Source: a virus
Virus record (IMG/VR): IMGVR_UViG_3300025666_000003
Coordinates: 1-64,000 of that record
Strand: one strand, 5' to 3'
Length of the DNA stretch: 64,000 nt
Part shown: positions 3,301 through 46,165 of the stretch, piece after piece
Layout: each line of letters begins with the position of its first letter
How positions within the stretch are numbered: position 1 is the first letter of the stretch
Made by a program: the position numbers and the translations under genes
Notes under the pieces: generated by a model
The model's input: only the letters and a program-made list of their open reading frames with translations
Database searches by the model: none
Told to the model about the DNA's origin: nothing

Positions 3301-3807
3301 ATGAATAAGTTAAAAGAAAGAAAAGAAAAATTTCACTATCTAGGTGATTTATCTAAATATCAATTAAAGTTACAAGAAACAGAGTATGTTAAATATAAAA
3401 CTGAATCGTATACAGAATATCAAAATTATCTTTATAAGAGAGCTTTGTATGGTTTAAATGCTTTAGCAGAAAAAGAATTAAATAACATTTGTAATAAAAA
3501 GAGAGGTCGTATAAATAAAGTTTATGTTAAAGGTCAAATTGCTATTAATCTTTATAAACAAAAAATTACTAATGATAAGAGTAATAAACTCTTTGAAAAA
3601 TTCTTTCCAGATAGTAAGATTACTAAATATTTAGTTAATCATTCTGAAGTTGATGAAGATTTTAAAAATACATTAACTTTTAAAACTCTTGATATCAACA
3701 AAGAACATATTATATCTATCTTTATAAAAAATGGAATTCTAGCAAAGAATTTCCGTACATTAAGACAAGATCCTAATAAACTTCCAAGATTAAAAAGTGA
3801 AGGTTAA
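3301..3807 (+). CDS. Hypothetical basic protein, 168 aa
   Basis: Unrecognised. It is a Lys/Tyr/Asn-rich, strongly basic protein that is probably largely helical, with a cluster of basic residues (KKRGR, residues about 63-67) compatible with nucleic-acid binding. The gene is first after a terminator and heads the group that includes the HNH-like protein and SF2 helicase; its end overlaps the next gene by 11 bases. A role in DNA metabolism is inferred from context only. Confidence 0.7.
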   Translation: MNKLKERKEKFHYLGDLSKYQLKLQETEYVKYKTESYTEYQNYLYKRALYGLNALAEKELNNICNKKRGRINKVYVKGQIAINLYKQKITNDKSNKLFEKFFPDSKITKYLVNHSEVDEDFKNTLTFKTLDINKEHIISIFIKNGILAKNFRTLRQDPNKLPRLKSEG

Positions 3808-4201
3808 GAAAAAAATATGTGATGGTTGCCAAAAAGAGCAATACATTTGGAAAAATCAGTCTGGAATAAGGTACTGTAAACAATGCTGGAGTCGTCATAA
3901 GCCTAGTGTTAATAAAAAACCAAATACAGTACCTATCCAGGCTGTTTCTCAAAAGAAAAAGAAGAAAGATGAAGAATACAGTAAACTAAGAAGAAGATTT
4001 TTAGAAGAACATTCTTTATGTAAAATTAAAATAACCTCTCGGTGTAGTAATACTGCAACTGATGTACACCACATGTATTCTGGTAATGATAGAATGACTT
4101 TTTATTTAATCCAGAGTACATGGTTACCGGTGTGTAGAAATTGTCATAACTGGATTCATGAGAATCCAAAAAAAGCAAGAATTATGAATTATTTAAAATA
4201 A
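3797..4201 (+). CDS. HNH-like zinc-binding protein, 134 aa
   Basis: Two zinc-knuckle regions are visible. The N-terminal one is CDGC...CKQC (residues about 8-35). The C-terminal half has C-x6-C, then VHH, then CRNCHNWIHE near residues 110-120. The HH-...-C-x2-C-H-x3-H pattern matches HNH/treble-clef nucleases, where the His of VHH would be catalytic. Such proteins cut or nick DNA in phage packaging, recombination or homing. A Lys-rich linker separates the two parts. The start is a GTG overlapping the previous gene by 11 bases; no in-frame ATG lies near. It directly precedes the SF2 helicase. Whether it is an active nuclease or only a structural zinc protein is not certain. Confidence 0.65.
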   Translation: MKVKKKICDGCQKEQYIWKNQSGIRYCKQCWSRHKPSVNKKPNTVPIQAVSQKKKKKDEEYSKLRRRFLEEHSLCKIKITSRCSNTATDVHHMYSGNDRMTFYLIQSTWLPVCRNCHNWIHENPKKARIMNYLK

Positions 4202-4210
4202 CTGATTACA

Positions 4211-22034: not shown

Positions 22035-24029
22035 ATGAAAACGCACTGGGTACATGATTATGAAACTATATCAAATTGTTTTGTAGCTGTATTCATCAGT
22101 ATTAAATCTGATGATAATAGAATCTTTGTTGTTCATGATCTTAGAAATGATCTTGATGAATTTATAGAATTTCTTAAACAAAATGTCCTTCATGATGAAT
22201 GGCATTTATCATATAATGGTTTGGCTTTTGATGGTCAGATAACTCAATACATTATAGATCACGCTGAATCTCTTATGATGATGAGTGGTTGTGAAGTAGG
22301 AGAGTGGATATATGATAAAGCACAGAAAGTTATAAATATAAAAAATAGTGGAGAATTTTTAGATTACAGTGAAAGAACTATGGATATACACCAGATTGAT
22401 TTATTTAAATTAAATCATTGGGACAATCCTGCAAAAAGATCAAGTCTGAAATGGATAGAGTACACAATGGATTGGAACAACATAATGGATATGCCAATTC
22501 ACCATAGTACTGAAATTACTACACATGACCAGATTGATGATATAATTAAATATTGTATTAATGATGTTGAAGCTACTAAGAATATAATGAAACTTAGTAA
22601 AAAACATATAGCACTAAGAAAAACACTAACTGATGAATATAATATTCCATTATTTAGTGCATCAGAACCAAGAATTTCCAAAGAATTGTTTTTACATTTT
22701 TTAAGTCAAAAAACTGGTATAAAGAAATGGGAACTAAAACAACTTAGAACAAAAAGAGAAAAGATTGTTATTAATGATATTCTATTAGATTATATAGACT
22801 TTAAAACTGCAACTTTTCAGAAGTTACATAAAAGATTTAAAGAAGTAATCGTATATCCTGATCAAACTAAAGGAGGTTTTAAATATTCTATTCAATATAA
22901 TGGAGTAAAAACTGATTTTGGTCTTGGTGGTTTACATGGTGCTATAGAAAAAGGAGTTTACAAATCTGATAAAGACAATATTATTATGTCTTCAGATGTT
23001 GTAAGTTATTATCCTAGACTTGCCATTGTTAATGAATGGGCCCCAGCACATCTTCCTAAAAAAGAATTTTGTGAACAATACGAATGGTTCTTTAATGAAA
23101 GAAGAAAGATATCTAAAAAAGATATTAGAAACTATGTATATAAGATTATTTTGAATAGTACGTATGGATTAAGTAATGATAAACATAGTTTTCTATATGA
23201 TCCTGAATTTACTATGAAGATTACTATGAATGGACAACTAAGCTTGTGTATGCTTTATGAGATGATAATGGAAAATATTCCAGGAGCTGTTCCATTAATG
23301 CAAAATACAGATGGTGTAGAAACTATTATCCCAAGAGAATACATTGAAAAATATAATGAAATTTGCAATGAATGGGAAAAGCTAACTAATCTTGAATTAG
23401 AACACACTACGTATAGTAAAATGATTATTGCTGATGTAAATAATTACATTGCTGTGTATGATTATAAAGAAGTTAACGAAGAGATCTTTAATGCAATGAA
23501 AGAGGAAAACCCTTTTGATTTGTTTAAAGTAGAGGATGATAAATTTTATTATGCTGGTACTAAATGTACTGGAATGAGATTTGATTTCCATAATCTAGCC
23601 TTACATAAGAATAAAAGTTTCTTAGTAACTCGCAAAGCTCTTTTTAACTACTTTGTACATGGTACGGATCCTAAAGATTATCTGAAAACAAACACTAATA
23701 TATATGATTTCTGTGGAGGAGTTAAAATAAAAGGTGATTGGGAATTTCAAAAAGAATTTATTAAAGATGGTGCATTTGTTGAAGAAAAACTTCAAGATAC
23801 CTTAAGATATTATATATCAAATAGAGGTTCAAAGATTATCAAATGTAATAAGCTTGACGGTAGAAGAACTCAAGTTGAAGCTGGCAGATGGTTACAAACA
23901 CCTTTTATAAGTTATGTTGACAAACCATTTGATGAATATGATATTAACTATGATTACTATTTAAATAAGGTTAACAAAGTGTTACACTCTGTTGAACCAA
24001 TTATTAACCAACTTAAATTAGAATTTTAA
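22035..24029 (+). CDS. DNA polymerase, family B
   Basis: 664 aa, short for the family. The proofreading exonuclease motifs are HDYET (D8, E10), NGLAFDGQI and NDVEATKN (D177). Polymerase motif A is SDVVSYYP (D321), motif B is K-x3-NSTYG (K370, N374, Y377, G378), and motif C is NTDGVE (D426), with TD in place of the common DTD. Crass-like phages carry either a PolA or a PolB, and this is the PolB type. The last residues read QLKLEF, which resembles the beta-clamp-binding hexapeptide found at the C-terminus of bacterial Pol II. TAATG couples it to the next gene. Confidence 0.92.
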   Translation: MKTHWVHDYETISNCFVAVFISIKSDDNRIFVVHDLRNDLDEFIEFLKQNVLHDEWHLSYNGLAFDGQITQYIIDHAESLMMMSGCEVGEWIYDKAQKVINIKNSGEFLDYSERTMDIHQIDLFKLNHWDNPAKRSSLKWIEYTMDWNNIMDMPIHHSTEITTHDQIDDIIKYCINDVEATKNIMKLSKKHIALRKTLTDEYNIPLFSASEPRISKELFLHFLSQKTGIKKWELKQLRTKREKIVINDILLDYIDFKTATFQKLHKRFKEVIVYPDQTKGGFKYSIQYNGVKTDFGLGGLHGAIEKGVYKSDKDNIIMSSDVVSYYPRLAIVNEWAPAHLPKKEFCEQYEWFFNERRKISKKDIRNYVYKIILNSTYGLSNDKHSFLYDPEFTMKITMNGQLSLCMLYEMIMENIPGAVPLMQNTDGVETIIPREYIEKYNEICNEWEKLTNLELEHTTYSKMIIADVNNYIAVYDYKEVNEEIFNAMKEENPFDLFKVEDDKFYYAGTKCTGMRFDFHNLALHKNKSFLVTRKALFNYFVHGTDPKDYLKTNTNIYDFCGGVKIKGDWEFQKEFIKDGAFVEEKLQDTLRYYISNRGSKIIKCNKLDGRRTQVEAGRWLQTPFISYVDKPFDEYDINYDYYLNKVNKVLHSVEPIINQLKLEF

Positions 24030-30400: not shown

Positions 30401-33391
30401 TCTATCTGTATCTCTGGATAAAGTAACTAAAGCTCTTCGTTGTTTAAATAAATTAGCTAATTCTGCAGCTATTGGTGAGTTAGTTTTATTTCTTTCTGCT
30501 ATTTTATTTAGTTCTGTATATATTTTTCCTGTTTCCTCGTAATACTCATCACTATAACCAATTATAAAATTTCTATCAGTAAACTTTTGTACTGCTTCTT
30601 GAAAAGCTTCTGCATTATCTTCCATGGTTATACCCGCTCCACCTATTTTAGTGTTAACATAAATTTCAAAATCTCTTTGTACTTTTTTTTCATTAGTGTT
30701 AAACTCCATGAATTTAGCAGATTCTTCTTTATACTTTAATCTAACTAAAACTTTACCTAGTGTTTCAGTATCTTTAACAACACCATCTTCAGTATAATAA
30801 CTAAATAATTCATTATATTCTTTTTCAGCAGCTAAGTATTCTGTATTTACATGATCCTCAATGTCTGCCATATTAACATTTTTATAATTGTTCATGGTTC
30901 TTAAGGCAGTCTGTCTTTCAATAAAAGCATCTTGTGAATCAGTTTGACTTACTGTAAAAAGTTTTCCTGTAACTGGATGTTCTACTTGATTAGCTGTTCT
31001 CCATATTTTTCTTACTTCATAGAATTCTTTTTTAAATTCTCTATGCATGTAATCTTCTTCAAATTTCCATATAGCTTCTAAAGCGGTTCTTTCAGCATCT
31101 TTATCTCCATCTATTCTAGCTTTTTCTAAGTCATACTTAAGTTTACCTTGATCAGATCTCCATCCATTACCAAATCTGTTTAAGAATGTGTATACTTCAA
31201 ATGTGTCAAAGGATCCATCTTCTTTTTGAATTGGTACAGTATCTGTAAAAAGCAACATATCAGATAATTGCCTTGTATTATTTGGATTGTAGCCTAATTG
31301 TTTTAAGAAAGGAAGAATATCAGATGCAATATCATTAGCTTGATTATAACTACGTCCTTCAGTTTCTGATAGATTGCTTTTAATAAATCTTGCAAAGCTT
31401 CCAGTAATTGGATCATTCATACTCATATATGGAGTTATCATTGATGTGAATAAACCAATGTCACCTCTCCTACCTTCTATAAAGTCTTTAATTGTATTTC
31501 TGTTAAGTCTTTTAGAATAAAACTCTTGTGCAACATCTTTAAGATACCTAAAGCTTTTGGGAGTATTTGGCAAACCCATTCCTTTTGGTGTTAATACTGC
31601 GTTTTCATTTTCTAAAATTGCTTTTACAGCATTATCAATCTGATCTTGTGTGTACCCATCATTTTTTAAAATACTTTTAATTCTTTCTTCAGCATATTGT
31701 TCAACTGCTTCACTCATATATTCAGTATGTTCAGTAAAGAATTCAGTTGTAAAATCTAACATTAAATTATTAGTAATTTTCTGTGCATTAGAAACTATAC
31801 CTTCTATACTAATAATCTTTTGTGTAAATGGATTCTCTGTTTCAAGATCCATAGCATCTTTTATATCACTAAGAAGTAATGCTTGTCTATTTAAAAATTC
31901 TTGATAATAAATTACTTTACTTATACCAGCTTGAGTTAAATAAGATTTCTTAGTCTTCATTGTTTTAACAATATTTTCTATTTGACTAGAAAATACTTTT
32001 GTTTGTGTTAAACTATTTACAAGAGCAATTGATCTTTCTTTAAATTCTTTTTGCTGAAGCTCCATAGCTAGAGCCATTTTTTCTTCATTAGTTTTACCTA
32101 CAGTTTCATAATCTTTTAGATATTCTTTTATATTAGTAAGAATACTGCTACTACTAGCTAATTCTTCTCTTAATTTCCATGGTGTATTCCTTAACCTAGC
32201 AATCTCTGCCATATTTTCAGAATATGCTCTGTTAAGAGCTTCTTCTAATTTTAATTTATCTTTATCAAAGTTAAGTGTTTCATAAAGTTTTTGCCATTCT
32301 AATTTTACTACTTCTTTAAATTCAGCAAAATCTTTAGGTTTGAGGTTAAGATTTTCTACTATGAAATCTTCACTTACCATCATATTAGCTAATTCTTCTA
32401 AAGTAGTGTTCTCATTAAGTTTGCCTAATACAACTTTTTTTGTTGTCAACTTTCTGATTATTTGCTTAATAGCATAAAGAAGGTTTTTTATAAATTTTTT
32501 AAATCCTTCGTCAGTTTTTGTTAATTCATTTACTTTATGAGTTGCTTTATATTCTAAAGCTGTTACTAAGACTTCCTCCTTAAATCTATCTGATTGATTT
32601 TGACCATATGGATCACTTTCATCAAATTTAAGATTTGGATATCCAGCTTTTACTTGATTAATTACAGTTTCACCATTCTTAGTAAGTGTTAATTGAGTAT
32701 AAAGATTATCAAAAAGTTTTCTATCAGATATAGATATAGCATTAATAAATGGATGCGCAAACTCATGAAGTACATTGGCTACTGTCATTTGACCATCAAC
32801 AAAGTATACTACATTATTATAAAAGAATGCTGGCTGATTATTATATGGTGTAGGTGTATTAGCTAATAATGCTACTGCTTCTTCTGTACTAACCTGATCA
32901 TAGTTTATACCAAAAGCTGCTTTAAACTTATCACCTAGAGCTTTTGCTATTTCATTTGCTTTAAAATTATCAATGCTACTAGCATCATTATTCATTATAT
33001 TCCAATATTGAAATACTTTTTCATTATATAGTTCTCTATTAGTATAATCATAAGTTTTTCCTCCTAACTCCATTCGTCTCATGTCAAGATCTTGAGCTAA
33101 TACATCCATTCTTTTTATTTCAACTTCTTCTGCAAATGAAGTAGCTTCATTCAATTCTAAAATTACTTCATTATCATAGTAATCAGTAATTAAATTTTCT
33201 GAAATAATAATTTGAGCTTCTAAAAGATCTGTTGTACCTACATATCCAAAAGAAAGTACTTTTTCTCTGTAAAGTTTATTCACTGCTGCAGCTACTGATT
33301 TGGCTTTTTTTGGAGATGCACCCATACCTTCAGTTGCTAATTCCTGAATATCATTATACAAACTATCTTTAATTTTTATTCTACAAGGCAT
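27407..33391 (-). CDS. Giant virion-associated protein with zincin (HEFAH) and LysM-like segment, 1994 aa
   Basis: Last gene of the leftward block, so the one transcribed furthest from its upstream neighbours. The N-terminal part has a zincin-type HExxH, HEFAH (H209, E210, H213), so a metalloprotease fold is likely. Most of the chain is long, charged and helical. Residues about 1668-1713 resemble a LysM repeat (YIEGDTWELISERY, then VEELKKKN and YGDEIIIS), which in other proteins binds peptidoglycan. A hydrophobic segment (VFIALLSYATYFLF, about residue 1850) could contact membrane. Large proteins beside the RNA polymerase gene in Crassvirales are packaged and ejected. It starts 33 bases after the polymerase stop, behind a TAGTATATT motif. 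Confidence 0.75.
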   Translation of the reverse strand: MPCRIKIKDSLYNDIQELATEGMGASPKKAKSVAAAVNKLYREKVLSFGYVGTTDLLEAQIIISENLITDYYDNEVILELNEATSFAEEVEIKRMDVLAQDLDMRRMELGGKTYDYTNRELYNEKVFQYWNIMNNDASSIDNFKANEIAKALGDKFKAAFGINYDQVSTEEAVALLANTPTPYNNQPAFFYNNVVYFVDGQMTVANVLHEFAHPFINAISISDRKLFDNLYTQLTLTKNGETVINQVKAGYPNLKFDESDPYGQNQSDRFKEEVLVTALEYKATHKVNELTKTDEGFKKFIKNLLYAIKQIIRKLTTKKVVLGKLNENTTLEELANMMVSEDFIVENLNLKPKDFAEFKEVVKLEWQKLYETLNFDKDKLKLEEALNRAYSENMAEIARLRNTPWKLREELASSSSILTNIKEYLKDYETVGKTNEEKMALAMELQQKEFKERSIALVNSLTQTKVFSSQIENIVKTMKTKKSYLTQAGISKVIYYQEFLNRQALLLSDIKDAMDLETENPFTQKIISIEGIVSNAQKITNNLMLDFTTEFFTEHTEYMSEAVEQYAEERIKSILKNDGYTQDQIDNAVKAILENENAVLTPKGMGLPNTPKSFRYLKDVAQEFYSKRLNRNTIKDFIEGRRGDIGLFTSMITPYMSMNDPITGSFARFIKSNLSETEGRSYNQANDIASDILPFLKQLGYNPNNTRQLSDMLLFTDTVPIQKEDGSFDTFEVYTFLNRFGNGWRSDQGKLKYDLEKARIDGDKDAERTALEAIWKFEEDYMHREFKKEFYEVRKIWRTANQVEHPVTGKLFTVSQTDSQDAFIERQTALRTMNNYKNVNMADIEDHVNTEYLAAEKEYNELFSYYTEDGVVKDTETLGKVLVRLKYKEESAKFMEFNTNEKKVQRDFEIYVNTKIGGAGITMEDNAEAFQEAVQKFTDRNFIIGYSDEYYEETGKIYTELNKIAERNKTNSPIAAELANLFKQRRALVTLSRDTDRRPNGQKLSPNQIRILHQIELDINKLKGEFDSKTGLSAADMDILESYETRIKEKTNPLTEAEKKEYINLVNVQNTLGMSKEDVTRQRQLYKELSQLRDMMATEYYVDSFNFAKRFVEFSSDEIDQINQENAGDWINNPLLIDQALADPTFKEWFDVNHYQMMLWDQVQKKKVPTWVRTSVWTLTLPSEEKFFKKTTLINPIDGKPIEVRGVPNKKYTFSKVKDKYYTIPPGSDKNDYVGTILDNRFQPLPRKYEPGNPNSAVDAKYINKEYENLEARNDAEGVAQFKLLTSITDNFLKLQVNKPNRSKLYLDFPRFRQRSTLELVQSGKTKESFATKFDNLKSVIKSMVQKDAADYEQNNEGHNFDANQQLEPTDMRGNPIDKVPVRGLYKLKKGDTSTDVLASLYNYLYSLNEQETLMELEPIAKSITKTLNENKNTVIKDMNKISSNMSKAANKVVNINLAENKRAGAVDYLVNKVFYGQGNTQFQVDNPMAVKVTNLLMGNASRAFIALDLTSAMKNRYGMMFQSIVEGVGGKYYNLKSLASGRIWSAKAVAQLIATGVYSRGPKSLELQLMEHFDPITGKTRKDFGKSSSRTFMKDFFDATWMYDFRRLTDLEAGLQVFGAMMHDKYVTQVMPNGETRSVKYINAWKLNENQQLTLLEGIDPEWSYQKINHTYIEGDTWELISERYAVPVEELKKKNKIALEDLDYGDEIIISSAKKFQDFKFKIQGIGKKLNGQMDNLVDDAQANKYLGYRLFTFYKRFAVPMFLNRFQYSSTGKGFWSDVTTTGEHTYDWDMGDLSKGYWISALQAMKKVVWDAEKYYPLMTPEEKTAVRKVFAEGVFIALLSYATYFLFGYDSGDEDRFAKMRERQDKYGMFGYMGNHILYQLIAVRTENEAFIPIPGLGLGDWLEFTNNTTIAFGPTLGNYAKIIGDLLLMLSGDEKAIYSQDAGPYEWQKEGRYKIWNHFGATIGLKGKNYSPIKAIKSIETFENSKLQ

Positions 33392-33424: not shown

Positions 33425-36400
33425 TTAATCGCATTCTGAACCTGATCTTTTTGTTGGAGGTCTACCTGCAGGTTTATTTTCTCCAAATAAGTTAAGTTGT
33501 GTTCCTGGATCAATTGGTCTAAGTTCTTCTCTTACTTCCATAAGTAATTTTGGAAACTCCGTACCCCATCTACTTTTATCTTGAGTATGTGTAAGAACTT
33601 TATTACCTGTAGCTAAAAGTATTTGTAAAGCATTTGGATTTTGTTCAAATGATGATTTTAGTAAATCTTTCATTATTCTAGAAGAGTTATCATCCCAATT
33701 AGTAATATTTAAGCTAGGAATAGTTTTTCCTATTCTTTTAGCTTCTGCTCCAGTAGCAGTAGATAATTTTCTTAAAAATTCATTTCTTTCATTAACAATA
33801 TCTTCTCTAGTTTTTCCTTTAGGGGGAATTTGAAGTGAACTAAAATAATCAGTATATAATAATTTTTCAGCTTGAAAAGCCCCTTCTACGGTTTTAAAAT
33901 TTTCAATTATACCTAAAGCAACTGGCACACTAGATGTTGGTACAAAAGGTCTATTAGCAAAATTACTTAACTCAGCATTTTCGTTAGTACCCGCATATAT
34001 ATTAACAGTCTCACTAGTTGGTTTACTCCAAGTTCCTAATAATTGACCATCTACTGTTACTTCAGAATAATTATATCCCTTAGCTTCCATATTAGCATAA
34101 AGTCTTTTTTCTCCAGTATTATAAGTGCTAGAATCTGTATAAGCTTTATTATCAGTAAGTATTGTTGCTCCAGCTTCTACAGCCTTGATAGCTTCTTTTA
34201 TAGTTCTATCTTGTTGAGTTTTTTGTTGTAACGCAGTACCTCTTTTACCTCCAATAGATACAAATATTACATCATTAGTTGAGTAGTTGCCTGTATTAGC
34301 AAATTCTCCTGCTTGTTGTCTATAAGTTTCTGTAGAACTTCCAGTAATACCTTCACCAAACCCTATATATTGAGTAGCAATACTTGCTTTAATAATTGCT
34401 TTTTTATCAGCAGATTGTATAGGAGTTACAGTAAATAAATTTTTCTTACTAAGCTCACTAGCTGGTTGAGCAAATGTTTTATTCACGGCTTGACTTTTTT
34501 CAGCATTGTGTCTAAGTGTAATACTAAATCTTTTAGACTTGTTACCTTCTGCGTCTATACCATGTTTATAATTAATTTGACCATCTTTACCCATTATTAA
34601 ACCTAGGCCAGACTTCATTGGTATTTCATACCTTTTTCCTCTACCATTAAGAATCATAGTTCTTTCGTCACCAAAACTAATAGTTACAACAGATGGATTA
34701 AGTTTACCCTTATTGTTTAATATTGGTTCATTATCAGTATGGAATCCTATTTTTTGACTACCATCCTTATATTCATTTATAAGAGCCATGTCAAAGTAAC
34801 CTTTTTCAAAACCTAATTCTGTTTCTATTTTAGAAATTAACCTTTGAAGTTCAGGACTTCCTATATTAGCAGATCTTGTAGTTCCAGAATAAGAATAAGC
34901 AGTATCAGAAAAATACATACTTCTCCTACCTTTACCAAACTTATCACTGGCCTTATGCTCAGTCTCGTAAGTATTCTTATATAATTTTTCTATAAAATTA
35001 AATATTTGTTCAGACTCTTCTTTATTAAATACTTGCTTAGTAAATACTTCAGCATCTTCAACATCTACTTTTGTTAAACCTTTTGTATTTACTAAACCAT
35101 TTGTTAATAGTGTAGCTATATCCAGATCTTCAATTACTTGATTTCCCTGTAATATTTTTTCATTTTTATTATTAAATTGTATTCCCGTAGATAAATCAAC
35201 ATTATCAATGTATACTTCTCCTGTAGCTTGATCAACAAGACTATATAGTTTACTTTTAGGAATTAACATCCATTTAGATGATTGAGGAGCTCTTTCATTT
35301 TTACCAGTATTGGTGTTATAAAATGCTTTAAATATAGTTGACGATGTAAAGAATGCTTTAGGTAAACTTCCATTACTTTTTCTTACATACTCATTGAACG
35401 ATTGAACATCTGTATCATTAATAATTTTACTTCCTCTAACAAGCTGAGTTGGTTCTATAGGTGTTGTAAAAATGCTTTCAGATTCTAATACCTTATCTTC
35501 AGGATCCTCTGATCCTTCATATCTATTGACAGCTGCTGAATCTATTAACTCATATAGTATTTGAATACCTTTATTTGATTCACTAAAGCCTGGATTTCTA
35601 TGCTTTGCCCCATATTCAAATGACCATCCTTCTAATTTACTCCAGTCTTCTATTTCTTCATCAGACATTTTTGAAAAATCAATTAGCCTTTTATCAGTCA
35701 CTTTAACTAATAGCATTTGACCTTCACCAATTTTGTCTCCTGACCAAAATTTAATTATTTGTCCAGGTTTTGCTTTAGCCCAATATGCATATGCATCATT
35801 AGTGTAATATCTAGTAGTGGCTGTTCTTTCACCTTGTAAGATAGCTTCAAATGTATTATCTGATACTACGTCATCTCTTTTATTATCACCATACTGAAAT
35901 GACATGGTACCTTCTTTATCAGCTTTATTATAACCATTGTACTCTTCTTCAGATACTACGTAATCTTTATACTTATCTTTTGAAAGTAGTCTACCGTATA
36001 TAATTTCTAGTGTATTATCATTAAGTTGATTTTGCATAAAGCTATTAGATGCATCTTGCATAATATCTGTAAAATCTTGAAATGGTAAAGCTGCATTAAA
36101 TCCATTTTTACTATATCCTATACCATGTTGGTATAACATCACAAGTGGAAACATTTTAAATAATTTACTTATATATGCATTATCTTTTTTATCAGCTTTG
36201 GCATTACCAGTAGATACTTTTTTAATATTAACATCTGCTAATTCTTTTAAATTATGATAATAACTAGATGCCAAGTCCCCTTCTACTCTATTTTTATCTG
36301 CTAATGTAAGTACTTTATCATCACCAATAGTATCAGCAGGTGTAAGTTGTTGAAGTACAGGATACTTAACTTTCAAACTTGGAAAATCTTTTATAACATC

Positions 36401-39400
36401 AAGTATAGTCTGACTAAAAGAATATGTTTCCATTTGCATAAGAAACTTACGGTTAAATGCATTTATTAATGCTCTTTTAGTTAAAAATTCTTCATATGCA
36501 CGTTCAGGTGTTAAGCCACCTGCTTTGATTCGTTTATATTCTTTATTATCTTTTACTAATTCAATTGGATTTTTTAATTTTGTAATTGCTCTTTCTATAC
36601 TATATTTAAAGAAACTAGATTTTTTATTACGTATTCCTGATTCAGAAACAAAAGGATCATTTTCTTCTGTAAATGATGTCAAGCCTCTATTAGTGTATGC
36701 TTTTTCAGCAGTAGATGATCTAAGGTAATATCCATAATCGTAATCATCTGATAACATTCCTGGATTGATAGTTATAATTTCTTTTTCAGAATTAATTTCT
36801 ACTCCACCAGGTATGTTTTTTGTTGATGTATTAACTTTGTAACCTTTATATAAATCTGGATAATCAATTACTTCTCCTTTACTATTTACAAAGTTAGACA
36901 TGCGATTTTGATAGATGTAATTAACTACACCATTTTTAAATTCACGTATAAATTGACTAACAGCTTCTTGATCACTACCATATCTATCTGCTATTCTTGG
37001 TGACCCTAACTTGTCTAAGATAAACTTTGTTATTACAGAATTGTTTCTTAACTTAAATAATGGTTCAAGTAATTTAAGCACAAGTTCATTTTTATAAAAT
37101 GAGCTTAATATTGATTCATTAACTAATGCCAGTACTGTATCTGAATCTACTTTTGAATTAGTCATTAATTCTTCAAGACCTTGTATTTTTCCAACTAATT
37201 CTTGGGCTGTTTTAGATCTTGTAGTATCAGGATTTGCTAATCTTTTAAGTGAATTCAAACCTTTAATTTGCTTTTCAATTTCTAAGAAATGCATAAACGC
37301 AGCTATCTTTGTTTTTTCACTACCTTCACCTTTTACTATTTTATATAATTCATTTTTATTAAAAGTACCAATTCCAGCTTCTTCCATAGCTACACTTGCA
37401 CCTTGATAATATTTACTTGTAGAAACAGGACTTGATCTAAGCTTATAAATTTTATCTCCTTTTTCAGTAATTATAAGATTAATTATAGTATCCTCATTAT
37501 TTAATAGTTGCTCCATTTCTGCTTTTGTAGCAAATTCTGTATTCTTTTTACCTTTTTGATAATATTCTACAATTGATTTTCCTTCTAATACAGGAATTAA
37601 AGCTTTTAAATTTTCAGTATTTACTTTAGCTTCCATAGCTATTTTTTCTTTAGCAGACATTGATTCTGTTAAAGTTTGATCAGCGGCCATATATTTAATC
37701 AATGGATTAGCTATTACTTCTCCTCTTTGAGTAACAATTTCTTCGTAAGCACTGCTAAGCAATCTTTGTTTTTCTGCATACTTACGTACTAATGGATTGG
37801 ATACAAAGTAAATTGCATCTTTAGCTGGAACTCCAGCTTTAAATAAATAAAATAATACTGGTGCAAGTTCAGGATTAGCTTGAATATAAAATATCCAAGC
37901 ATCCGCTTCAACATCTACTAATCCATTTACTGACTCTGAAAATAGATCAGCTATTTTTTCTATACCATCTACTGAATATATATCAGATAATGAAATTACA
38001 GTTTGGTTTTTACTATTTGTTGTTGAGTTATGGCGAAGTTTTAAACGCATTTTATAATCCACATCTATATCAACATAACCATCTTCACTATATATTTGTG
38101 CTTTATAAGATGCTGGCATTTTTGCATCAATTTGATTTAATAATGGGTGCAATGCATTTTCAATTGCAGCAATACCAAGTACTTCTTTACCAATTAAATT
38201 TGCTGAATGCTTATCTAAATTAAAAGGTACTTCTAATGTTCTTGTTGGACTTATTACAATATCATTATTTTTTCCATCAATTCTTGGACCATCATAAACA
38301 TTTTCAAATTTATCAAATTCACTAACGTATTTTTGAAGATCCATAGCTATGGGTCTTAATGTATTTGTTCCTGTAGGTTTGGTAAGTTGTGCAAAGTTTG
38401 AAGGAAGCTCAACTATACCTTTAATAGCTTGGATTAAGTTATTTTCTAAAGCATTTTTCTGATTACGTATTATAACTGATATACCTTTTCCTTTATCTTC
38501 TTTTATTTTACTTATTTCTTTTTTTAATTCTTCATTAGTTACATTAGATGTAATAAACTTTCCACTTGCATCAATGCTTGGCATGAATGTAGTCATCTTA
38601 TCTACATCAAAATCAGATCCATTTTTAACTACGATCTCTGAAGGAAGTATAATTATATTACTTGCTGCTGGATCTAGGAATTCGTAGACTTCCATTGACT
38701 CAATAAATCCTAATGTTTGAGTAGGAATACGTACACCAGCTAATGTTACAGCTTTTCTATTTGAACCATCATCTTGATCTAACCAATTATCATCTTTGAT
38801 CATCTCATTAAGACGCTCCCTTGTTTCTATAACCTCACCATTTATATCTTTAAGATTTAATAAGTTTAGAAAGTCTCCTTGAAGTGCAATTGCAACCTTC
38901 ATTAGTTTAGTCTTACCATTTACTTGATGATAAAACGGAAGATTGTTACTTCCCAGGAATTTTTTAATATCAGCTTTTGAAGCTTTATCAAATTTCTGTC
39001 TTAAAACCCTATCCCATGTACCATTTGTAGTAGCACTAGACACCTGTACAAGTCCTTCACCTTTTACTTTTTGTTTGATTAATCTTTTTTCAATTAAAGA
39101 TATAATAGTTTTTTCAATTGTGTCGGCTTCAAGATGTAAAGACAAATCTATGTTAATCTTATTCTCTTGATTTACACCTATCATCTTTATTAGATGTTTA
39201 GGTACTGCTTTTCTGCCTAATTCTTTATGAATAACATTTACAAATCTATTTAAATCTCCAGTGTATGCTCCATACTTATATTCAAATCCAATATCATTAA
39301 GAAGTTCTATTGTTAAAATTTCTGTGTATTCATCTACAGCATCATCATAAGCTTTGACTTTTTGCTTATCTATACCTACTGGTACTTCACCATTATTATA

Positions 39401-42400
39401 TAAACTTTCAATAATAACTTTACGTAACTGAGTTGCAAAAATTGTTTTCTTTTTAAATTTATTTGGTACTTTAGTTACATCTTTAAGATATTCACCATAT
39501 ATTTTGTTTATTGTAAACTCTATATTATTTACAATATCTTTTTGTTCTTCGTTATCATATATTTTATCAGGAGAACCATCTTTTGTTATTCCAGATACTT
39601 TTGAACCAGACTCAAATACAACATATTGAATATCTTTTTCCATCATTTGCTTATGAAGATTATCCATATCTGATCCTTCACCAACCATAGTAGGAATAAG
39701 AGGCATTAATGAGAATTTATGCATTCCTGTTAAAGGTAGTAGTGCATCTGCTATAGGTCCGTAATACTGAAGTTTGTATACAGGAAAAAATTCTTTTATG
39801 TCTGAAGGATTAATTTCTCTGTTATGTATTATATCTTGAAATAAGTCTTCTTGTTCCGGACTCCATTGTTTAGATAACTTTTTTAACATTCTGTATGTAT
39901 CAAAAGTAATTAAACCTTGACCATCACCTTCTTCCATATTTTTATACTCATCTATATCTCTAGCTACTCTTGATTCAACTAAAGCTTTTACTAATTGAGG
40001 TTTAGTTGGATTTGAACCTAACTTAGATAATTCAATTTCATTTAATGCATCTTTAAGATCTTCTTTAGCAACTTTCTTAAATCTTATTGCATAGTCTTTT
40101 CTCCAAGCATTTGCTATTTCATCAATGTATATACTAGTTCTTTTAACATCTTCAAGTACAGCTGTATTTATTGTTCCATTGTATTTGATATTTTTGTATC
40201 TTGCATCAAGTGTAGTAGCATAACTACCTTTATTCCATACATTTTGTATAAAGTTTTGTGCTGAAATATCTGTTCTCACACCTAATCCTCCAGAAGTAAG
40301 ACCTGTATTTCTTTTATGTAGATGATCTTTAGCGTGATTATACTGAGCCATATCTCCATACAATAAACCTATTGTTTCAAAGTTATGTATGAATGAATTA
40401 TATACATAAGTTCTTACTAAAGCATCATCAATCTCAGCTTCTGTTAATTTATGTACAGCAAGTTTATTTCTAAGTTTTGGATCAATAAATCTATTTTTTC
40501 TAAGTATTGCTATAGAGTTTGTAGTTTGATTATCAAAATAATTTTTAGTGCTCTCTGCCATTTTAGCTTTAAGACTAGGGTTATTATTCAATGCTTCAAT
40601 AAGATCCGTTCCTTCTAGGTTGTAAATTTGATTTTTTATATTATTGTTTAATACATCATCAAAAGCTGTAAATAATTCACCAGCATAATATTCTTTACCA
40701 TCCCATTTCATTCTTCTATTATAGCCTTTATACTTTTTAAATTCTTCTGGATTTGCACGAAATCTTTTGAGTCTTTCAAACTCAGCAGCCATATAAGGTA
40801 ATATTATTTCTTCAAAAGCATAAGTTTCACCTGATCCATTCTTTAATAAAGATTCAAGATCTACATAAAGTTTACTTTGTTCTTGACTAATGGGTCCGTC
40901 AATACCACCTCTTATAACTATACCAAAAGAAGAAGATTTAGAGGCATGTCTAATAAATTCTTGAATACCTTCTTTAAGCATCAAATTCATTTCTTGTAAA
41001 AACTTACCATAGTAATCTAGACCTGTAGTAACAACTCCTTCTTGAATCTCTGCATTTTGTGTACCTGAATCAATAAATAATTCTAAACTTTTATCTTTTA
41101 ATTTATTAAATTGACCACCATCGTAAAAATTAAATAAGTTTTTAAGTATTTGAGATCTTTTTGTAAATGAATTAGTTGCCGGATTAAGATCTGACATGTG
41201 TTTAAATTCATCTTTAGTCCACAAGTCAGTAAGTTTTTTTGCTTTATTTAAAGCATACACTCTTCTACTTGCAGTTTGATCATCAATATGTTCGTATACA
41301 ACATTACCTTCTGGATTCAGTACACTAAAGTTTGCATATTGTGATCCATATTTACCATGTAAAATAGCTATACGTTCTATTTGTGTTCTTTCAGTTATTT
41401 CTTTACCAAAAAGTTCAGTTGATAAACCAGTTGATTTACTTAATTCAGCTACAGGATCTTTTTTAAAGATTTCAATTTGAGTTAACTTAAATTCTTCCTG
41501 CTTTGTAAGTTTATTATTTTCTGCTTTAGTTTGAAGTTGAAGTTCTAATGCAGAAAGATCTTTAATAATACTATATATGTATGGTAGACCGTAGTATTCA
41601 CTACGCATTTCTAACTCATTTTTAATTATTTTTAAGTCATCAAGATTCATTCCCAAGGCTCTTGCAAAAGCTAAACTTTTACTAACGTCAAAGGTTCCTT
41701 TTACAGTGCTTGCATCTTTAAATACATCAGTAACTTTTTGAAGATTTAATTTAGATTTATTATTATCTCTTGTGATAAATCTATTTTCTTCTATTGTTTG
41801 AGTTTTAAAGTTATCACTAAAGCTTCTTCTAAGAAGTCCTGTTTCATAACTTGCTTTAATAGGTTTTAATACATAACCATCTTCAGTATTAAATGCAGTA
41901 AGTTGCATATAAGAGGTTCTCTTTCTTTTGAAAGTTTGCCAAAATGCTGTAGTAATATCAAATTCTGTTTCATGATCAGCAGAATTTGGATTTGGAAGCT
42001 TATATTTAATTAACTGTTCTAATTCCGGAAAAGATTGCCAAAGTAATTTATTATTTAATATTTCATAAGCTTCAACAGGATCTTCAATTCCACCTATAGC
42101 TCTAACAACATTATCCCACATGCTACCATAGTTGACTAATTTTTTAAAACCTAATCTATTATAAACAAAATTTTTATTTTCTTTCTTATGAAGACTACCC
42201 AATACATAAGATACTTCATCTTCTGTACTTTCTTCTAATGATTTTTGACCAACACTTTTATCAGCTATTTGATCTGAATTATTTATTGATTCAGCATCTC
42301 CAACATAACTATCTTCATCTTCCTTTAATTCTTCATTAATTATAGTTTGTCTTTCATTGATAATTCTATAACTACTATTTTCAACAAGGTATGCTAATGA

Positions 42401-45400
42401 ACCATGCTTTTCATTACCAAAGTTTGTAATTACAGTTTGTAGTATTCTTATATCATCTTGTAACTTTGCTTGCTCAGCTGTAAGTATTTTAGTAGTTACA
42501 GGTTTCTTATTATATTCAAGAGCTTTGTATTTTGCTCCACCTTCAATATAGCTTGTATATTGTACAGTAGCATCTTGCATTGAATCAACTACTATTATTC
42601 CTACACGTTTCCCTTTACTGTTGGTTATAGATTCGTGACTATAGAAGTCTCCAATAATACTAATTCCATGATACATTTCACCTTTTAACCTGTCTCCTTT
42701 TTTTGAGCTTAAGTTAAGTTTGTTAAATTCATCAATTTGTGATCTAAGAAATACATACTTGTCATCTCCTGATTTTTCACTAGCAATCATAACAGCTGCT
42801 GCATTAGCTTTAAGTTCTGATAAAGTATTGATTGAATTAAAAGAAACATCTGTTATTTGCCCAAGCTCTTTTTTACGGTTTTCAAGTTGTTTTTCAAATC
42901 TTCCTTTAAGTATTTTAAATGCAATCTCTCTATTACTTATATTCTGCTCCGTTCCAAGAAACATTCTTTTCTTTTTCTTATTACTAAGAATCTCAATACT
43001 ACCTGCTTTACTACCTGGAGCATCTCCATTTTTAATTGCTAATTGATCAACCATTTCAGAAAGAGTTGAGTCAGCACTTTCAACAAATAAATCTGATTCT
43101 TCTTTATTTAAAGCATCTTCTTTTTTATTTTTTACTTGAGATATACCTCTGTCCATTTCATTAAACATGACATTGTCAATCAATGGAGTATACTTATTTA
43201 GTAGTTTTGGATTTTTACTAGAAAAATAAAGTGTATCAAACATCTCTTTAACTGATGAAATATCATAAAGATCTGTAATTACATCTTGTTTAGTTGTATT
43301 TTCAAATACACTTTTAATCCAATTTAGTATTCTTCTAAAGAGTGAATTTCTTTTTGGCCTACCTTTTTTAGCTTTTGGATTTTTAGAAAAAGTTCTGAAA
43401 TCTTCTGCAAGTTCTTCTTCAATATCATAGAAAGACATATCTTTCCATTTACCACCTTTACTTCTTATCTCTTTATATAGTGCAGTCTTTTCTGCTTTTG
43501 TCAAGAACAATTGTGAAAATGCATGCCAAGCTTCATGATACACATCTACCATGTTACCACCCGTATGCTCATTAATTCCTATCTTACCTAACTTACCACC
43601 TTCAAATAATGTAGACCCCGCACTAATAAACTCTGCATAAACATCAGAATTTACAATATTGGCCATTTGACCTAAAGAGATGAAATTTTGTAGTGGAGAT
43701 GTTTTCCACCAATCATCAGCACGTTTAATATCTTCAGATGTTATACCTAACTGATTAAGAATGGTTTTTCTTTTAAGTCCACTTTTTGTATCAAAACCAT
43801 CAAAAAGATCTCCTTCTGATGGATTAATAGTTCCTTCAGGATTAAGTTTTTCAGCGTCTGTAGTTTTAATCTTTTTTGCTTCAAGATCTTTCTTTTGTTC
43901 TTGATATAATTTTGTTCTTGGCTTTTCATTTAATGTGTAATCAGTTTCTTTAATAAAAGCTATTGCCACACCTTCACTATTATATACAGTAATTGTATCA
44001 GTAATATATTCAGTATCTGTTTCAATATCTTCGCTAACTAAAGTTACAGAATCATTAAGTTTTGGCATTACTTTTTTAACAGTTCCTTCATTTTTTTTAA
44101 ATTTTTTAATAATTGATGCAGATACAGGTTGACCTTCAGCATTAAGAATTGTAAATGAACCATATCCTTCACCTTCTGTATTGGTACCTGTGTTTCCAAT
44201 GTAGTTAACTTTAAAATCTTTTGTGTTATTTTCTTCTAGTTTAAGTTCGTTAACTAAATTATCTTTAAGTTCTCTTGTGTATGATCTAAAATTTTCAGAT
44301 TCAATTTCATTTTTTGCTTCATCAATTTCTTCAGTAATCCCTCCTGGTAATGCAAATTGCATGTAAGCATTAAATACTTCTTGAGTTTGGGATGTAGTAA
44401 AAATTTCAGCATGTGCTTTACGTAGTACATCATTAATATAGTCAGCTCTTACAAGTTTTCCATTTTGAAAATCAAAGTAACCTCCGTTAACTAAATCAGC
44501 TCTATAACGCATTCTTGTTGCACTAACTTGACCAACATTTTCAGCATTTGGATTTGTTACAGTTGTTGCAAACATTAAAGCATCTTTAATTTCTTTAAAA
44601 GCTGTTGCTGATGTTAAGTCAACAGGTTTAACATTTTTATCAATTGCACCACTTTTTTCTGCAACTATTTTAATTGAAAACTCATCAGTAGCTGGAATAT
44701 AAGACAATCTGTATCTTCTTATACTTCTTGCCATATTATTATGAATAAATTGCTCAGCAAAATTCATTTTTTCTTTTCCTGTAAGTTGTGAACTAGTTAA
44801 TGCACTTGCTATTTTTCCAGCAATTTCATCAGTCATACGTGGTCTATCAATAGTAAATTTCTTGTTGTCTATTGTAATAGTATGATATCCTTCAGGTCTT
44901 CCTTTTGATTCTACTGTTACTGATGTTAATGAACTATAAATATTTAACAACTCAGTTTCTGATAATCCAGATTCTGATAATGTATCTAAATACATAAACT
45001 TACCTGCTGCAAAACTTTGGATACCTTCATTAATTCCTGTTATTGGAACTAACTTAGCTTCTTTAGTTTTTATAAATTGCTGAGTAAAATTATAAAGATC
45101 TTTTAATTCTTTTTGTTGTTCCTTATCAATTGCATCAATAATATTTTGTTCAGTTTGTTCAGTTTCTTTAGCATACTCTGTTAAAGTCATATCAAATGAA
45201 GCTGCTAACTTATTTGCAATCTCTGCTGGAGTAGTCACTTGTGATTCTTGATTATAAAGACCTTTTGCATTATATCTAGCTCCTTCTTTTCTTACTGTTC
45301 TTGTAAACTGATATACATAACTACCATCTTCAGTAATTTTTCCATCAGTATTAAACTTAACTGGATTACCATTTGCATCAACAATAATCATAGCAACTCT

Positions 45401-46165
45401 TTCATTTAAAGGAGTTACATTTTTATTTTGTTTACCTTTACCCTCAAGAATATAACCTCTTTCAACAGTTCTTTTAGTATGTGCATCTAAATGTTCTGCT
45501 GGAATATCTTTAACAAGTATAGGTTTAAGTTTAAGCACTTGATCTTCATATATAACATCATTTAATCCAGGAACACTTTTAGGATCAACTTGATTACTAA
45601 TATTTCTTATTGTATTAAATATTCTTCTTCTAGTTTCACTTAAAAGTTCTTGTGTGAAGTCTGTTTTATCTTCAGGATTTAATGGATTATATTCTTGCAT
45701 TGTTGTTGCAAGAGGACTAAATGGTCTAAGTCTTAATTCAACAAATTCATTAAGTTTTTCTTCATCAATTACTTCTTTTGGTGTAAGAATTTCTTCTTTT
45801 TTTTCATTAACCAATTTCTCGAATTCTTCTGGAGATAAATCTGGTCTGAATGTTCTCAATGTATTAACAAATCCGTCATCTGGATTTCTAAAAGTTTGAT
45901 TTAATTTTCTTAAATCAGAACCTTCAAGAACAGCATCTTGAGTATCTTGCTGCATAGAAGCTATTGTTAAAAGAGCAGGTAATTGTTGTACAAATTTTGC
46001 AGCATTAGCTTCATTTGTTTTATTTGCTATCTTATCAAACATTATGTTCATATAATTATCAACATTAAAAGGAATATTTTCCTTCATGCCAATCTTTATA
46101 CTTTTATAAGCGTGTTTGTATAATTTTTCTACCTGGTCTACTGTTAATGCACAAGTTATTTTCAT
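33425..46165 (-). CDS. Giant virion RNA polymerase with ASCH, AlkB-like and NADAR domains, 4246 aa
   Basis: The largest protein in the window. The order is: unrecognised N-terminal region; zincin motif HEAWH (H877-H881); polymerase region about 2100-2750 with PLIPTMVGEGSDMDN, GVRIPTQ and the catalytic GSDFDVDKM (D2518, D2520, D2522). The last replaces the DFDGD of cellular beta-prime subunits and fits the crAss-like two-barrel polymerase. An ASCH-like domain follows (about 3425-3540, LQGERTATTR), then an AlkB-like dioxygenase (H3809, D3811, H3868, RFSITLR at 3879-3885), a Rossmann-like segment (about 3950-4050) and a NADAR/YbiA-like domain (about 4053-4215, E4094). QLNLF (4223-4227) looks like a beta-clamp motif. 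In Crassvirales this polymerase is injected and transcribes early genes. All tail activities are predictions. Confidence 0.88.
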   Translation of the reverse strand: MKITCALTVDQVEKLYKHAYKSIKIGMKENIPFNVDNYMNIMFDKIANKTNEANAAKFVQQLPALLTIASMQQDTQDAVLEGSDLRKLNQTFRNPDDGFVNTLRTFRPDLSPEEFEKLVNEKKEEILTPKEVIDEEKLNEFVELRLRPFSPLATTMQEYNPLNPEDKTDFTQELLSETRRRIFNTIRNISNQVDPKSVPGLNDVIYEDQVLKLKPILVKDIPAEHLDAHTKRTVERGYILEGKGKQNKNVTPLNERVAMIIVDANGNPVKFNTDGKITEDGSYVYQFTRTVRKEGARYNAKGLYNQESQVTTPAEIANKLAASFDMTLTEYAKETEQTEQNIIDAIDKEQQKELKDLYNFTQQFIKTKEAKLVPITGINEGIQSFAAGKFMYLDTLSESGLSETELLNIYSSLTSVTVESKGRPEGYHTITIDNKKFTIDRPRMTDEIAGKIASALTSSQLTGKEKMNFAEQFIHNNMARSIRRYRLSYIPATDEFSIKIVAEKSGAIDKNVKPVDLTSATAFKEIKDALMFATTVTNPNAENVGQVSATRMRYRADLVNGGYFDFQNGKLVRADYINDVLRKAHAEIFTTSQTQEVFNAYMQFALPGGITEEIDEAKNEIESENFRSYTRELKDNLVNELKLEENNTKDFKVNYIGNTGTNTEGEGYGSFTILNAEGQPVSASIIKKFKKNEGTVKKVMPKLNDSVTLVSEDIETDTEYITDTITVYNSEGVAIAFIKETDYTLNEKPRTKLYQEQKKDLEAKKIKTTDAEKLNPEGTINPSEGDLFDGFDTKSGLKRKTILNQLGITSEDIKRADDWWKTSPLQNFISLGQMANIVNSDVYAEFISAGSTLFEGGKLGKIGINEHTGGNMVDVYHEAWHAFSQLFLTKAEKTALYKEIRSKGGKWKDMSFYDIEEELAEDFRTFSKNPKAKKGRPKRNSLFRRILNWIKSVFENTTKQDVITDLYDISSVKEMFDTLYFSSKNPKLLNKYTPLIDNVMFNEMDRGISQVKNKKEDALNKEESDLFVESADSTLSEMVDQLAIKNGDAPGSKAGSIEILSNKKKKRMFLGTEQNISNREIAFKILKGRFEKQLENRKKELGQITDVSFNSINTLSELKANAAAVMIASEKSGDDKYVFLRSQIDEFNKLNLSSKKGDRLKGEMYHGISIIGDFYSHESITNSKGKRVGIIVVDSMQDATVQYTSYIEGGAKYKALEYNKKPVTTKILTAEQAKLQDDIRILQTVITNFGNEKHGSLAYLVENSSYRIINERQTIINEELKEDEDSYVGDAESINNSDQIADKSVGQKSLEESTEDEVSYVLGSLHKKENKNFVYNRLGFKKLVNYGSMWDNVVRAIGGIEDPVEAYEILNNKLLWQSFPELEQLIKYKLPNPNSADHETEFDITTAFWQTFKRKRTSYMQLTAFNTEDGYVLKPIKASYETGLLRRSFSDNFKTQTIEENRFITRDNNKSKLNLQKVTDVFKDASTVKGTFDVSKSLAFARALGMNLDDLKIIKNELEMRSEYYGLPYIYSIIKDLSALELQLQTKAENNKLTKQEEFKLTQIEIFKKDPVAELSKSTGLSTELFGKEITERTQIERIAILHGKYGSQYANFSVLNPEGNVVYEHIDDQTASRRVYALNKAKKLTDLWTKDEFKHMSDLNPATNSFTKRSQILKNLFNFYDGGQFNKLKDKSLELFIDSGTQNAEIQEGVVTTGLDYYGKFLQEMNLMLKEGIQEFIRHASKSSSFGIVIRGGIDGPISQEQSKLYVDLESLLKNGSGETYAFEEIILPYMAAEFERLKRFRANPEEFKKYKGYNRRMKWDGKEYYAGELFTAFDDVLNNNIKNQIYNLEGTDLIEALNNNPSLKAKMAESTKNYFDNQTTNSIAILRKNRFIDPKLRNKLAVHKLTEAEIDDALVRTYVYNSFIHNFETIGLLYGDMAQYNHAKDHLHKRNTGLTSGGLGVRTDISAQNFIQNVWNKGSYATTLDARYKNIKYNGTINTAVLEDVKRTSIYIDEIANAWRKDYAIRFKKVAKEDLKDALNEIELSKLGSNPTKPQLVKALVESRVARDIDEYKNMEEGDGQGLITFDTYRMLKKLSKQWSPEQEDLFQDIIHNREINPSDIKEFFPVYKLQYYGPIADALLPLTGMHKFSLMPLIPTMVGEGSDMDNLHKQMMEKDIQYVVFESGSKVSGITKDGSPDKIYDNEEQKDIVNNIEFTINKIYGEYLKDVTKVPNKFKKKTIFATQLRKVIIESLYNNGEVPVGIDKQKVKAYDDAVDEYTEILTIELLNDIGFEYKYGAYTGDLNRFVNVIHKELGRKAVPKHLIKMIGVNQENKINIDLSLHLEADTIEKTIISLIEKRLIKQKVKGEGLVQVSSATTNGTWDRVLRQKFDKASKADIKKFLGSNNLPFYHQVNGKTKLMKVAIALQGDFLNLLNLKDINGEVIETRERLNEMIKDDNWLDQDDGSNRKAVTLAGVRIPTQTLGFIESMEVYEFLDPAASNIIILPSEIVVKNGSDFDVDKMTTFMPSIDASGKFITSNVTNEELKKEISKIKEDKGKGISVIIRNQKNALENNLIQAIKGIVELPSNFAQLTKPTGTNTLRPIAMDLQKYVSEFDKFENVYDGPRIDGKNNDIVISPTRTLEVPFNLDKHSANLIGKEVLGIAAIENALHPLLNQIDAKMPASYKAQIYSEDGYVDIDVDYKMRLKLRHNSTTNSKNQTVISLSDIYSVDGIEKIADLFSESVNGLVDVEADAWIFYIQANPELAPVLFYLFKAGVPAKDAIYFVSNPLVRKYAEKQRLLSSAYEEIVTQRGEVIANPLIKYMAADQTLTESMSAKEKIAMEAKVNTENLKALIPVLEGKSIVEYYQKGKKNTEFATKAEMEQLLNNEDTIINLIITEKGDKIYKLRSSPVSTSKYYQGASVAMEEAGIGTFNKNELYKIVKGEGSEKTKIAAFMHFLEIEKQIKGLNSLKRLANPDTTRSKTAQELVGKIQGLEELMTNSKVDSDTVLALVNESILSSFYKNELVLKLLEPLFKLRNNSVITKFILDKLGSPRIADRYGSDQEAVSQFIREFKNGVVNYIYQNRMSNFVNSKGEVIDYPDLYKGYKVNTSTKNIPGGVEINSEKEIITINPGMLSDDYDYGYYLRSSTAEKAYTNRGLTSFTEENDPFVSESGIRNKKSSFFKYSIERAITKLKNPIELVKDNKEYKRIKAGGLTPERAYEEFLTKRALINAFNRKFLMQMETYSFSQTILDVIKDFPSLKVKYPVLQQLTPADTIGDDKVLTLADKNRVEGDLASSYYHNLKELADVNIKKVSTGNAKADKKDNAYISKLFKMFPLVMLYQHGIGYSKNGFNAALPFQDFTDIMQDASNSFMQNQLNDNTLEIIYGRLLSKDKYKDYVVSEEEYNGYNKADKEGTMSFQYGDNKRDDVVSDNTFEAILQGERTATTRYYTNDAYAYWAKAKPGQIIKFWSGDKIGEGQMLLVKVTDKRLIDFSKMSDEEIEDWSKLEGWSFEYGAKHRNPGFSESNKGIQILYELIDSAAVNRYEGSEDPEDKVLESESIFTTPIEPTQLVRGSKIINDTDVQSFNEYVRKSNGSLPKAFFTSSTIFKAFYNTNTGKNERAPQSSKWMLIPKSKLYSLVDQATGEVYIDNVDLSTGIQFNNKNEKILQGNQVIEDLDIATLLTNGLVNTKGLTKVDVEDAEVFTKQVFNKEESEQIFNFIEKLYKNTYETEHKASDKFGKGRRSMYFSDTAYSYSGTTRSANIGSPELQRLISKIETELGFEKGYFDMALINEYKDGSQKIGFHTDNEPILNNKGKLNPSVVTISFGDERTMILNGRGKRYEIPMKSGLGLIMGKDGQINYKHGIDAEGNKSKRFSITLRHNAEKSQAVNKTFAQPASELSKKNLFTVTPIQSADKKAIIKASIATQYIGFGEGITGSSTETYRQQAGEFANTGNYSTNDVIFVSIGGKRGTALQQKTQQDRTIKEAIKAVEAGATILTDNKAYTDSSTYNTGEKRLYANMEAKGYNYSEVTVDGQLLGTWSKPTSETVNIYAGTNENAELSNFANRPFVPTSSVPVALGIIENFKTVEGAFQAEKLLYTDYFSSLQIPPKGKTREDIVNERNEFLRKLSTATGAEAKRIGKTIPSLNITNWDDNSSRIMKDLLKSSFEQNPNALQILLATGNKVLTHTQDKSRWGTEFPKLLMEVREELRPIDPGTQLNLFGENKPAGRPPTKRSGSECD

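Follow-up and report, generated by a model that had tools for sequence, protein, structure and literature searches.

Terminal cysteines and an exchangeable enzyme bay in a giant crAss-like RNA polymerase suggest a coupled train of ejected proteins

A phage that ejects several giant proteins must bring them in order, and in matched numbers, through a tail less than 50 Å wide, and how this is done is an open question. One locus of the Crassvirales, the most abundant phages of the human gut, bears on it, with a presumed injected polymerase that is itself extended by a chain of enzyme domains. The locus lies in a 64,000-nucleotide stretch of DNA (the window; positions 1 to 64,000 of the 100,107-bp IMG/VR virus record IMGVR_UViG_3300025666_000003), to which INPHARED holds no near-identical phage DNA and no close relative among named phages. 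The first-pass annotation had proposed a 4246-aa open reading frame here, and it is real: it begins with ATG and occupies positions 33425..46165 of the minus strand (the strand of every window feature below), and the plus strand of the same region is dense with stops. We refer to its product, which would be the middle link of the train proposed below, as P0001.

P0001 carries the catalytic motif DFDVD at residues 2518–2522 (38600..38614). The motif is kept in the aligned relatives, and its aspartates are invariant in an alignment of 16 sequences (P0001 and 15 IMG/VR relatives). The conserved polymerase part, delimited by alignment with relatives, spans residues 2000–3408 (35942..40168); the core is 20–25% identical to its counterparts in crAss001, phi14:2 and many other crAss-like phages, and tblastn links P0001 to crAss001 gp50 and phi14:2 g066. 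In the same transcription block, the upstream neighbor P0002 (46167..52934; 2255 aa) matches the gp47 profile (E = 3e-50) and contains a PD-(D/E)XK motif at residues 1582–1631, and the downstream neighbor P0003 (27407..33391; 1994 aa) matches gp49/g065 (E = 1e-168 and 1e-109) and has a weak LysM match at residues 1675–1712. A DxDxD motif within the conserved core and flanking proteins of the gp47 and gp49 families are the two marks of a Crassvirales virion RNA polymerase, and P0001 has both. Homologs of all three window giants (gp47, gp49 and gp50) were detected in crAss001 virions by mass spectrometry (PMC10172136), and the phi14:2 RefSeq record annotates g065–g067 from MS/MS; RNA synthesis, too, is known for the homologs from these two phages. 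The earlier identification of a crAss-like virion RNA polymerase is therefore upheld by the motif at residue 2518, by core homology and by the presence of homologs in virions, and on sequence grounds we assign P0001 to this family. A zincin-like HEAWH motif is also present at residue 877 (43523..43537), in a segment kept in relatives; such HExxH motifs occur in two of the three window giants (P0001 and P0003) and may mark processing or host-targeting proteases.

Beyond the conserved part, P0001 ends in a tail of residues 3409–4246 (33428..35941), delimited by comparison of relatives, in which the annotation had read ASCH-, AlkB-, Rossmann- and NADAR-like segments. Most of this reading stands: Pfam identifies the AlkB and NADAR domains, structure prediction, a check that it had suggested, yielded models for the ASCH and α/β segments and recovered ASCH by fold, and the Rossmann-like segment is the one part without a family match. 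The ASCH domain (residues 3421–3556; 35498..35905) falls under the Pfam cut-off (3437–3521, E = 0.095; profile E values range from 0.02 to 0.1), which is too weak for a call from the profile, and the fold decided: the AlphaFold2 model (pLDDT 80.5) has as its best Foldseek match a solved ASCH protein, the Escherichia coli N4-acetylcytidine amidohydrolase YqfB (E = 5e-5), and other ASCH structures match too, so that the assignment is confirmed at the level of a predicted fold. The AlkB 2OG-Fe(II) dioxygenase cassette (residues 3706–3888; 34502..35050) matches PF13532 over 3710–3885 (E = 2e-17) and keeps the HxD...H and arginine signature of the family as H3809-x-D3811, H3868 and R3879. The NADAR cassette (residues 4051–4210; 33536..34015) matches PF08719 over 4061–4204 (E = 2e-10) and retains catalytic E4094 together with the phage-type H4193, a histidine that replaces Glu/Asp in the last strand and is invariant in seven relatives, its position being taken from alignment rather than structure. 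Profile and histidine together place it in the phage gp30.3 subgroup. Between these two lies the Rossmann-like cassette (residues 3904–4046; 34028..34456), modeled as an α/β domain (pLDDT 86) with no match at E < 0.001 in a fold search of the PDB. We considered an SLOG/cpYpsA (YpsA/DprA-like) identity for it and set this aside, given the lack of such a match in the window tail by Pfam or by PDB fold at that threshold; the cpYpsA match in one relative (L025) falls on a different, adjacent segment. Pfam found none of the typical polyvalent domains in P0001.

About 100 loci emerged when viral contigs were scanned with the core and the tail as queries, and among them we took 61 non-redundant chains with complete C-termini and cores 35–55% identical to that of P0001. 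In these chains, the conserved polymerase part stops about 650 aa past the catalytic region, and the remainder is anywhere from about 120 to 1860 aa long. The annotation had taken such a tail to be unusual for a crAss-like polymerase; the comparison does not support this, since tails are at least 400 aa long in 43 of the 61 chains and are modular in the clade. A NADAR domain is already annotated on the cr126_1 polymerase, and others lie inside or adjoining giant transcription-block proteins of cr130_1, cr131_1 and cr272_1. By Pfam, the 61 tails contain AlkB-type dioxygenases (16), SF1 helicases (7), NADAR (5), cpYpsA (4) and ART-PolyVal (4), and more rarely kinase-like AAA_33/Zeta-toxin matches (2) and RNase H (1); iterated profiles add ASCH in 10 of the giants and the Rossmann-like cassette in 9, with order and combination varying and the domains at times N-terminal. 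One such tail (L010:7910-12979) combines a dioxygenase with an SF1 (RecD/UvrD-like) helicase of the kind found in seven giants.

Cassettes and cores have separate histories. At the DNA level, the AlkB block is 82.6% identical to that of L021 over 637 bp, and the Rossmann-like block is 85–87% identical to its counterparts in two further loci (87% in L023 and 85.5% in L020). Both blocks have sharp edges, and the remainder of the gene matches in short patches only. Across all pairs, how similar two cassettes are says nothing about how similar their cores are (Spearman rho from −0.26 to 0.19, none significant), which rules against a tail inherited vertically along with its polymerase; AlkB cassettes as much as 97% identical, for example, sit on cores that are 36% identical. 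These sequence comparisons indicate that phages trade tail modules without regard to the core, and the tail is best described as a swap bay that is common in the clade. No unfused Rossmann-like cassette was found in viral contigs: every examined locus is an ORF longer than 2400 aa or the open-ended 1956-aa ORF of L025. Two single giants (L143:871-12948 and L150:805-14517) have no crAss polymerase core and contain no cysteine; they carry the P0001-type Rossmann-like cassette at up to 60% identity, and L150 also has an LPD23 polyvalent domain. We also looked for a bacterial source of the AlkB cassette; the single homolog (L122, an Ignavibacteria MAG; 33% identity, one cysteine in 197 aa) gives no origin and is a weak control for cysteine content.

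The ends of the three window giants bear on how such proteins might travel together. They contain four cysteines in 8495 aa, all of them terminal, whereas the remaining ORFs of the window have 82 in a total of 7726 aa (1.06%). The sole cysteine of P0002 is residue 2254 of 2255 (codon 46173..46175) and faces the polymerase N-terminus; P0001 has cysteines only at residue 5 (46151..46153), facing the upstream link, and residue 4245 of 4246 (33431..33433), facing the downstream link; and the sole cysteine of P0003 is residue 3 of 1994 (33383..33385), facing the polymerase C-terminus. In gene order, a link with a cysteine only at its C-end is thus followed by a polymerase with one at each end and a link with one only at its N-end. 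A single cysteine wherever two links face each other, with the outer ends bare of it, points to joints.

The same rule holds across relatives, counting a facing cysteine when it lies within 12 residues of the end. Among 60 IMG/VR relatives, it is present at the polymerase C-end in 60/60 and at the N-end of the next protein in 60/60, at the C-end of the upstream link in 48/48 and at the polymerase N-end in 49/50. We do not count the one locus without it (L036) as an exception, as its start appears truncated. Outer C-ends lack cysteine in all 40 complete cases, so that these relatives show both halves of what a disulfide-joined train would require. The 61 tails hold 61 cysteines in 44,361 aa, one each within the last 10 residues and none internal, and the polymerase bodies of the same giants hold six in 191,225 aa. 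Avoidance is not universal, as internal cysteines persist in some gut lineages (38 in cr272 gp23). The cysteine-free L143 and L150 do not break the rule, being neither polymerases nor accompanied by partner giants. Seven chains have four links, with an extra protein of 242–782 aa between the polymerase and the final link, and this protein has a cysteine at both ends in 7/7. The extra-link loci include L029, L041, L036, L015, L016 and L032; Pfam matched 0/5 of the extra links scanned, and at their C-ends they look like polymerases from other genomes whose C-ends face a terminal protein of the same kind.

The rule extends to 14 named Crassvirales: the Steigviridae crAss001, phi14:2, cr106_1, cr108_1 and cr126_1; Dulem virus 41; and cr130_1, cr131_1, cr272_1, cr118_1, cr52_1, cr4_1, cr113_1 and cr10_1 from four subfamilies of Suoliviridae. 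All facing ends examined have a cysteine and no outer end does; for cr10_1, the observation covers just the two ends of the giant itself. In crAss001 and cr106_1, gp47 and the polymerase are encoded on opposite strands, which means that the pattern is no by-product of gene adjacency. In six genomes (cr118, cr52, cr4, cr113, cr130 and cr272), the upstream link and the polymerase form what gene order and ORF length indicate to be one fused chain of 4300–6400 aa; the cysteine pair of that joint is absent, and the other joint retains both of its cysteines. Splits by probable introns (cr108_1 and cr131_1) or by an in-frame stop (L019) create no cysteine. In the two probable intron cases, the polymerase gene is interrupted within the DFDID motif (L112 of cr108_1 at 20409/20700 and L110 of cr131_1 at 22317/23112), and in cr131_1 an additional ORF lies between the halves. 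The terminal-cysteine rule is described nowhere in the literature that we searched, whose scope did not include the main phi14:2 polymerase paper (Drobysheva 2021).

The facing ends also vary together. Similarity between C-ends correlates with similarity between the N-starts that follow them (rho = 0.52, reached in 0 of 500 permutations), a value unchanged after controlling for core identity, which neither end tracks. A recurring pair joins PEGLPPIDRTS..C to MPCRIQI. Junctions of the 61 giants also show matched end types with a lock-and-key appearance, KILDKLC with M..SCPNKNS.EW and EEDPFKC with M.C.SK..L.YL. In most genomes the DNA for the two ends is contiguous, and transfer of a whole junction in a single block could account for, or add to, this co-variation.

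We propose, with a probability of about 70%, that giant ejection proteins are coupled head to tail through their terminal cysteines and threaded in order, with a swap bay on the polymerase. The train would run from the gp47-family protein through the RNA polymerase to the gp49-family protein, neighboring links being joined through the lone cysteine that each presents to the other. Disulfides between the chains are the most economical mechanism for these joints, most likely made in the mature virion; because the cytoplasm is reducing at assembly, the bonds would have to form late. Native chemical ligation is unlikely, as the N-side cysteine sits at residue 3–10 rather than at an exposed N-terminus. 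Coupling would hold the giant chains in register and order during largely unfolded threading through the narrow tail, after which the host's reducing cytoplasm would free the links, and the scarcity of other cysteines would keep pairing specific. This hypothesis fits the crAss001 virion, for which about six copies each of gp47, gp50 and gp49 have been suggested, passing constrictions of less than 50 Å, and in which disulfides occur elsewhere (PMC10172136). The published map does not resolve the cargo and its authors are silent on cargo cysteines (PMC10172136); no cargo disulfide is reported in the literature that we examined. That the Crassvirales as a whole inject their transcription machinery as a single covalent, disulfide-hooked train of about 0.7–1 MDa, with matched couplers and an exchangeable enzyme bay, we consider somewhat better than an even bet.

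The bay, just ahead of the C-terminal coupler, would accept recombined cysteine-free cassettes, here ASCH, AlkB, Rossmann-like and NADAR. Tails avoid cysteine as the body does, and the conserved terminal cysteine lies beyond them; as far as sequence can tell, this speaks for packaging and injection of the tail within the polymerase chain, with which it would travel into the cell. The tail enzymes would then arrive ahead of phage gene expression and would probably undo or prevent nucleotide-based attack by the host on the incoming genome or its early RNA. From the domain families, the NADAR together with AlkB and ASCH would likely repair damaged or modified bases, or clear nucleotide signals, during the first minutes of infection. 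Packaging of NAD/ADP-ribose domains for early counter-defense has been proposed (PMC9503650).

Other readings of the tail fit the data less well. An artefact, in which assembly or recoding created one long ORF from a polymerase and a separate tail gene, has a negligible chance of being correct: genes of Crassvirales are often split or recoded (PMC7886860), but this ORF is continuous from ATG to stop without internal stops, its architecture recurs in independent contigs and no internal start with the cysteine signature lies between polymerase and tail. It is conceivable, if unlikely, that the tail is ordinary polyvalent-protein accretion, with passenger domains on a chain whose interest lies in the polymerase only. 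Injected proteins of the polyvalent kind have precedent (PMC7824862), tail length varies widely with many relatives lacking the domains of P0001, and the Rossmann-like cassette also occurs in the non-polymerase giants L143 and L150. Passengers would nevertheless not be expected to keep AlkB and NADAR active-site residues, to be free of cysteine and to recur in the same few functional classes.

The cysteines, too, admit explanations other than bonds between neighbors. They might bind zinc, perhaps across several chains, or dock the neighbors non-covalently into a polymerase complex, an idea with some appeal because annotation and literature associate all three giants with RNA polymerase and because the end peptides resemble docking motifs. 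We regard it as improbable: two thiols per junction are few for zinc, and neither variant explains the avoidance of cysteine elsewhere, which fits shielding from unwanted disulfides better. A shade less probable still is that the terminal cysteines bond a common partner, such as a pair in a gp45-type channel protein, the portal or the tail wall, and serve as packaging anchors. Disulfides are known in the virion, and gp45-type proteins keep a close cysteine pair (390/398 in crAss001 gp45, 369/378 in phi14:2 g069 and 259/267 in cr106 gp44), a possible partner or oxidation site. A common partner would, however, leave unexplained why cysteines lie only at neighbor-facing ends, with two on extra links and none at outer ends, why the pair is lost on fusion and why C-ends co-vary with N-starts.

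If the bonds of the proposed train are real, a covalent ejection train would be a new kind of mechanism. The coupling rule spans an order with cultured members, which reduces the question to a one-gel experiment. Through the swap bay, a presumed injected polymerase would double as a vehicle for cargo that even distant phages exchange with one another; the contents of the bay would predict host defenses that strike ahead of the first phage transcript, and the arrangement may serve as a model for designing phage particles that deliver proteins.

The closest known systems are phi14:2 g065–g067 and crAss001 gp47/gp50/gp49, which share with the window a giant DFDxD polymerase, the same two flanking families and the same cysteine rule. 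The window polymerase differs in length (4246 aa versus 2180–2412 aa) and in its C-terminal bay of ASCH, AlkB, Rossmann-like and NADAR cassettes. By analogy, the bay may make P0001 work like a phage polyvalent protein: its length, its avoidance of cysteine and its mixed nucleotide/ADP-ribose and nucleic-acid domains are in keeping with that class of large injected chains, and sister tails of P0001 carry ART-PolyVal and cpYpsA domains. Unlike polyvalent proteins, P0001 is built on a virion RNA polymerase and has presumed end-coupling cysteines matched with its neighbors. The large ejected proteins gp50, gp51 and gp52 of N4 (Schitoviridae) and gp15 and gp16 of T7 resemble the cysteine-poor proteins of the proposed train in having no cysteine at all, and differ from them in lacking even the terminal ones; the N4 virion polymerase is, moreover, a T7-type RNA polymerase and not of the two-barrel type. 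In N4-like virion RNA polymerases, the absence of cysteine has been tied to passage through tail and periplasm (PMC3715699). Avoidance in ejected proteins is thus already known, and the single cysteine at each facing end appears, from these sequences, to be the new element. Phage NADAR proteins of the gp30.3 type and the DarT1-associated NADAR antitoxins have the same domain as the window tail, and the phage-type histidine is also found in P0001; phage NADARs hydrolyze guanine-ADP-ribose in vitro (PMC11125620). Whereas phage NADARs are typically standalone (PMC9503650), that of P0001 is fused to a presumed injected polymerase.
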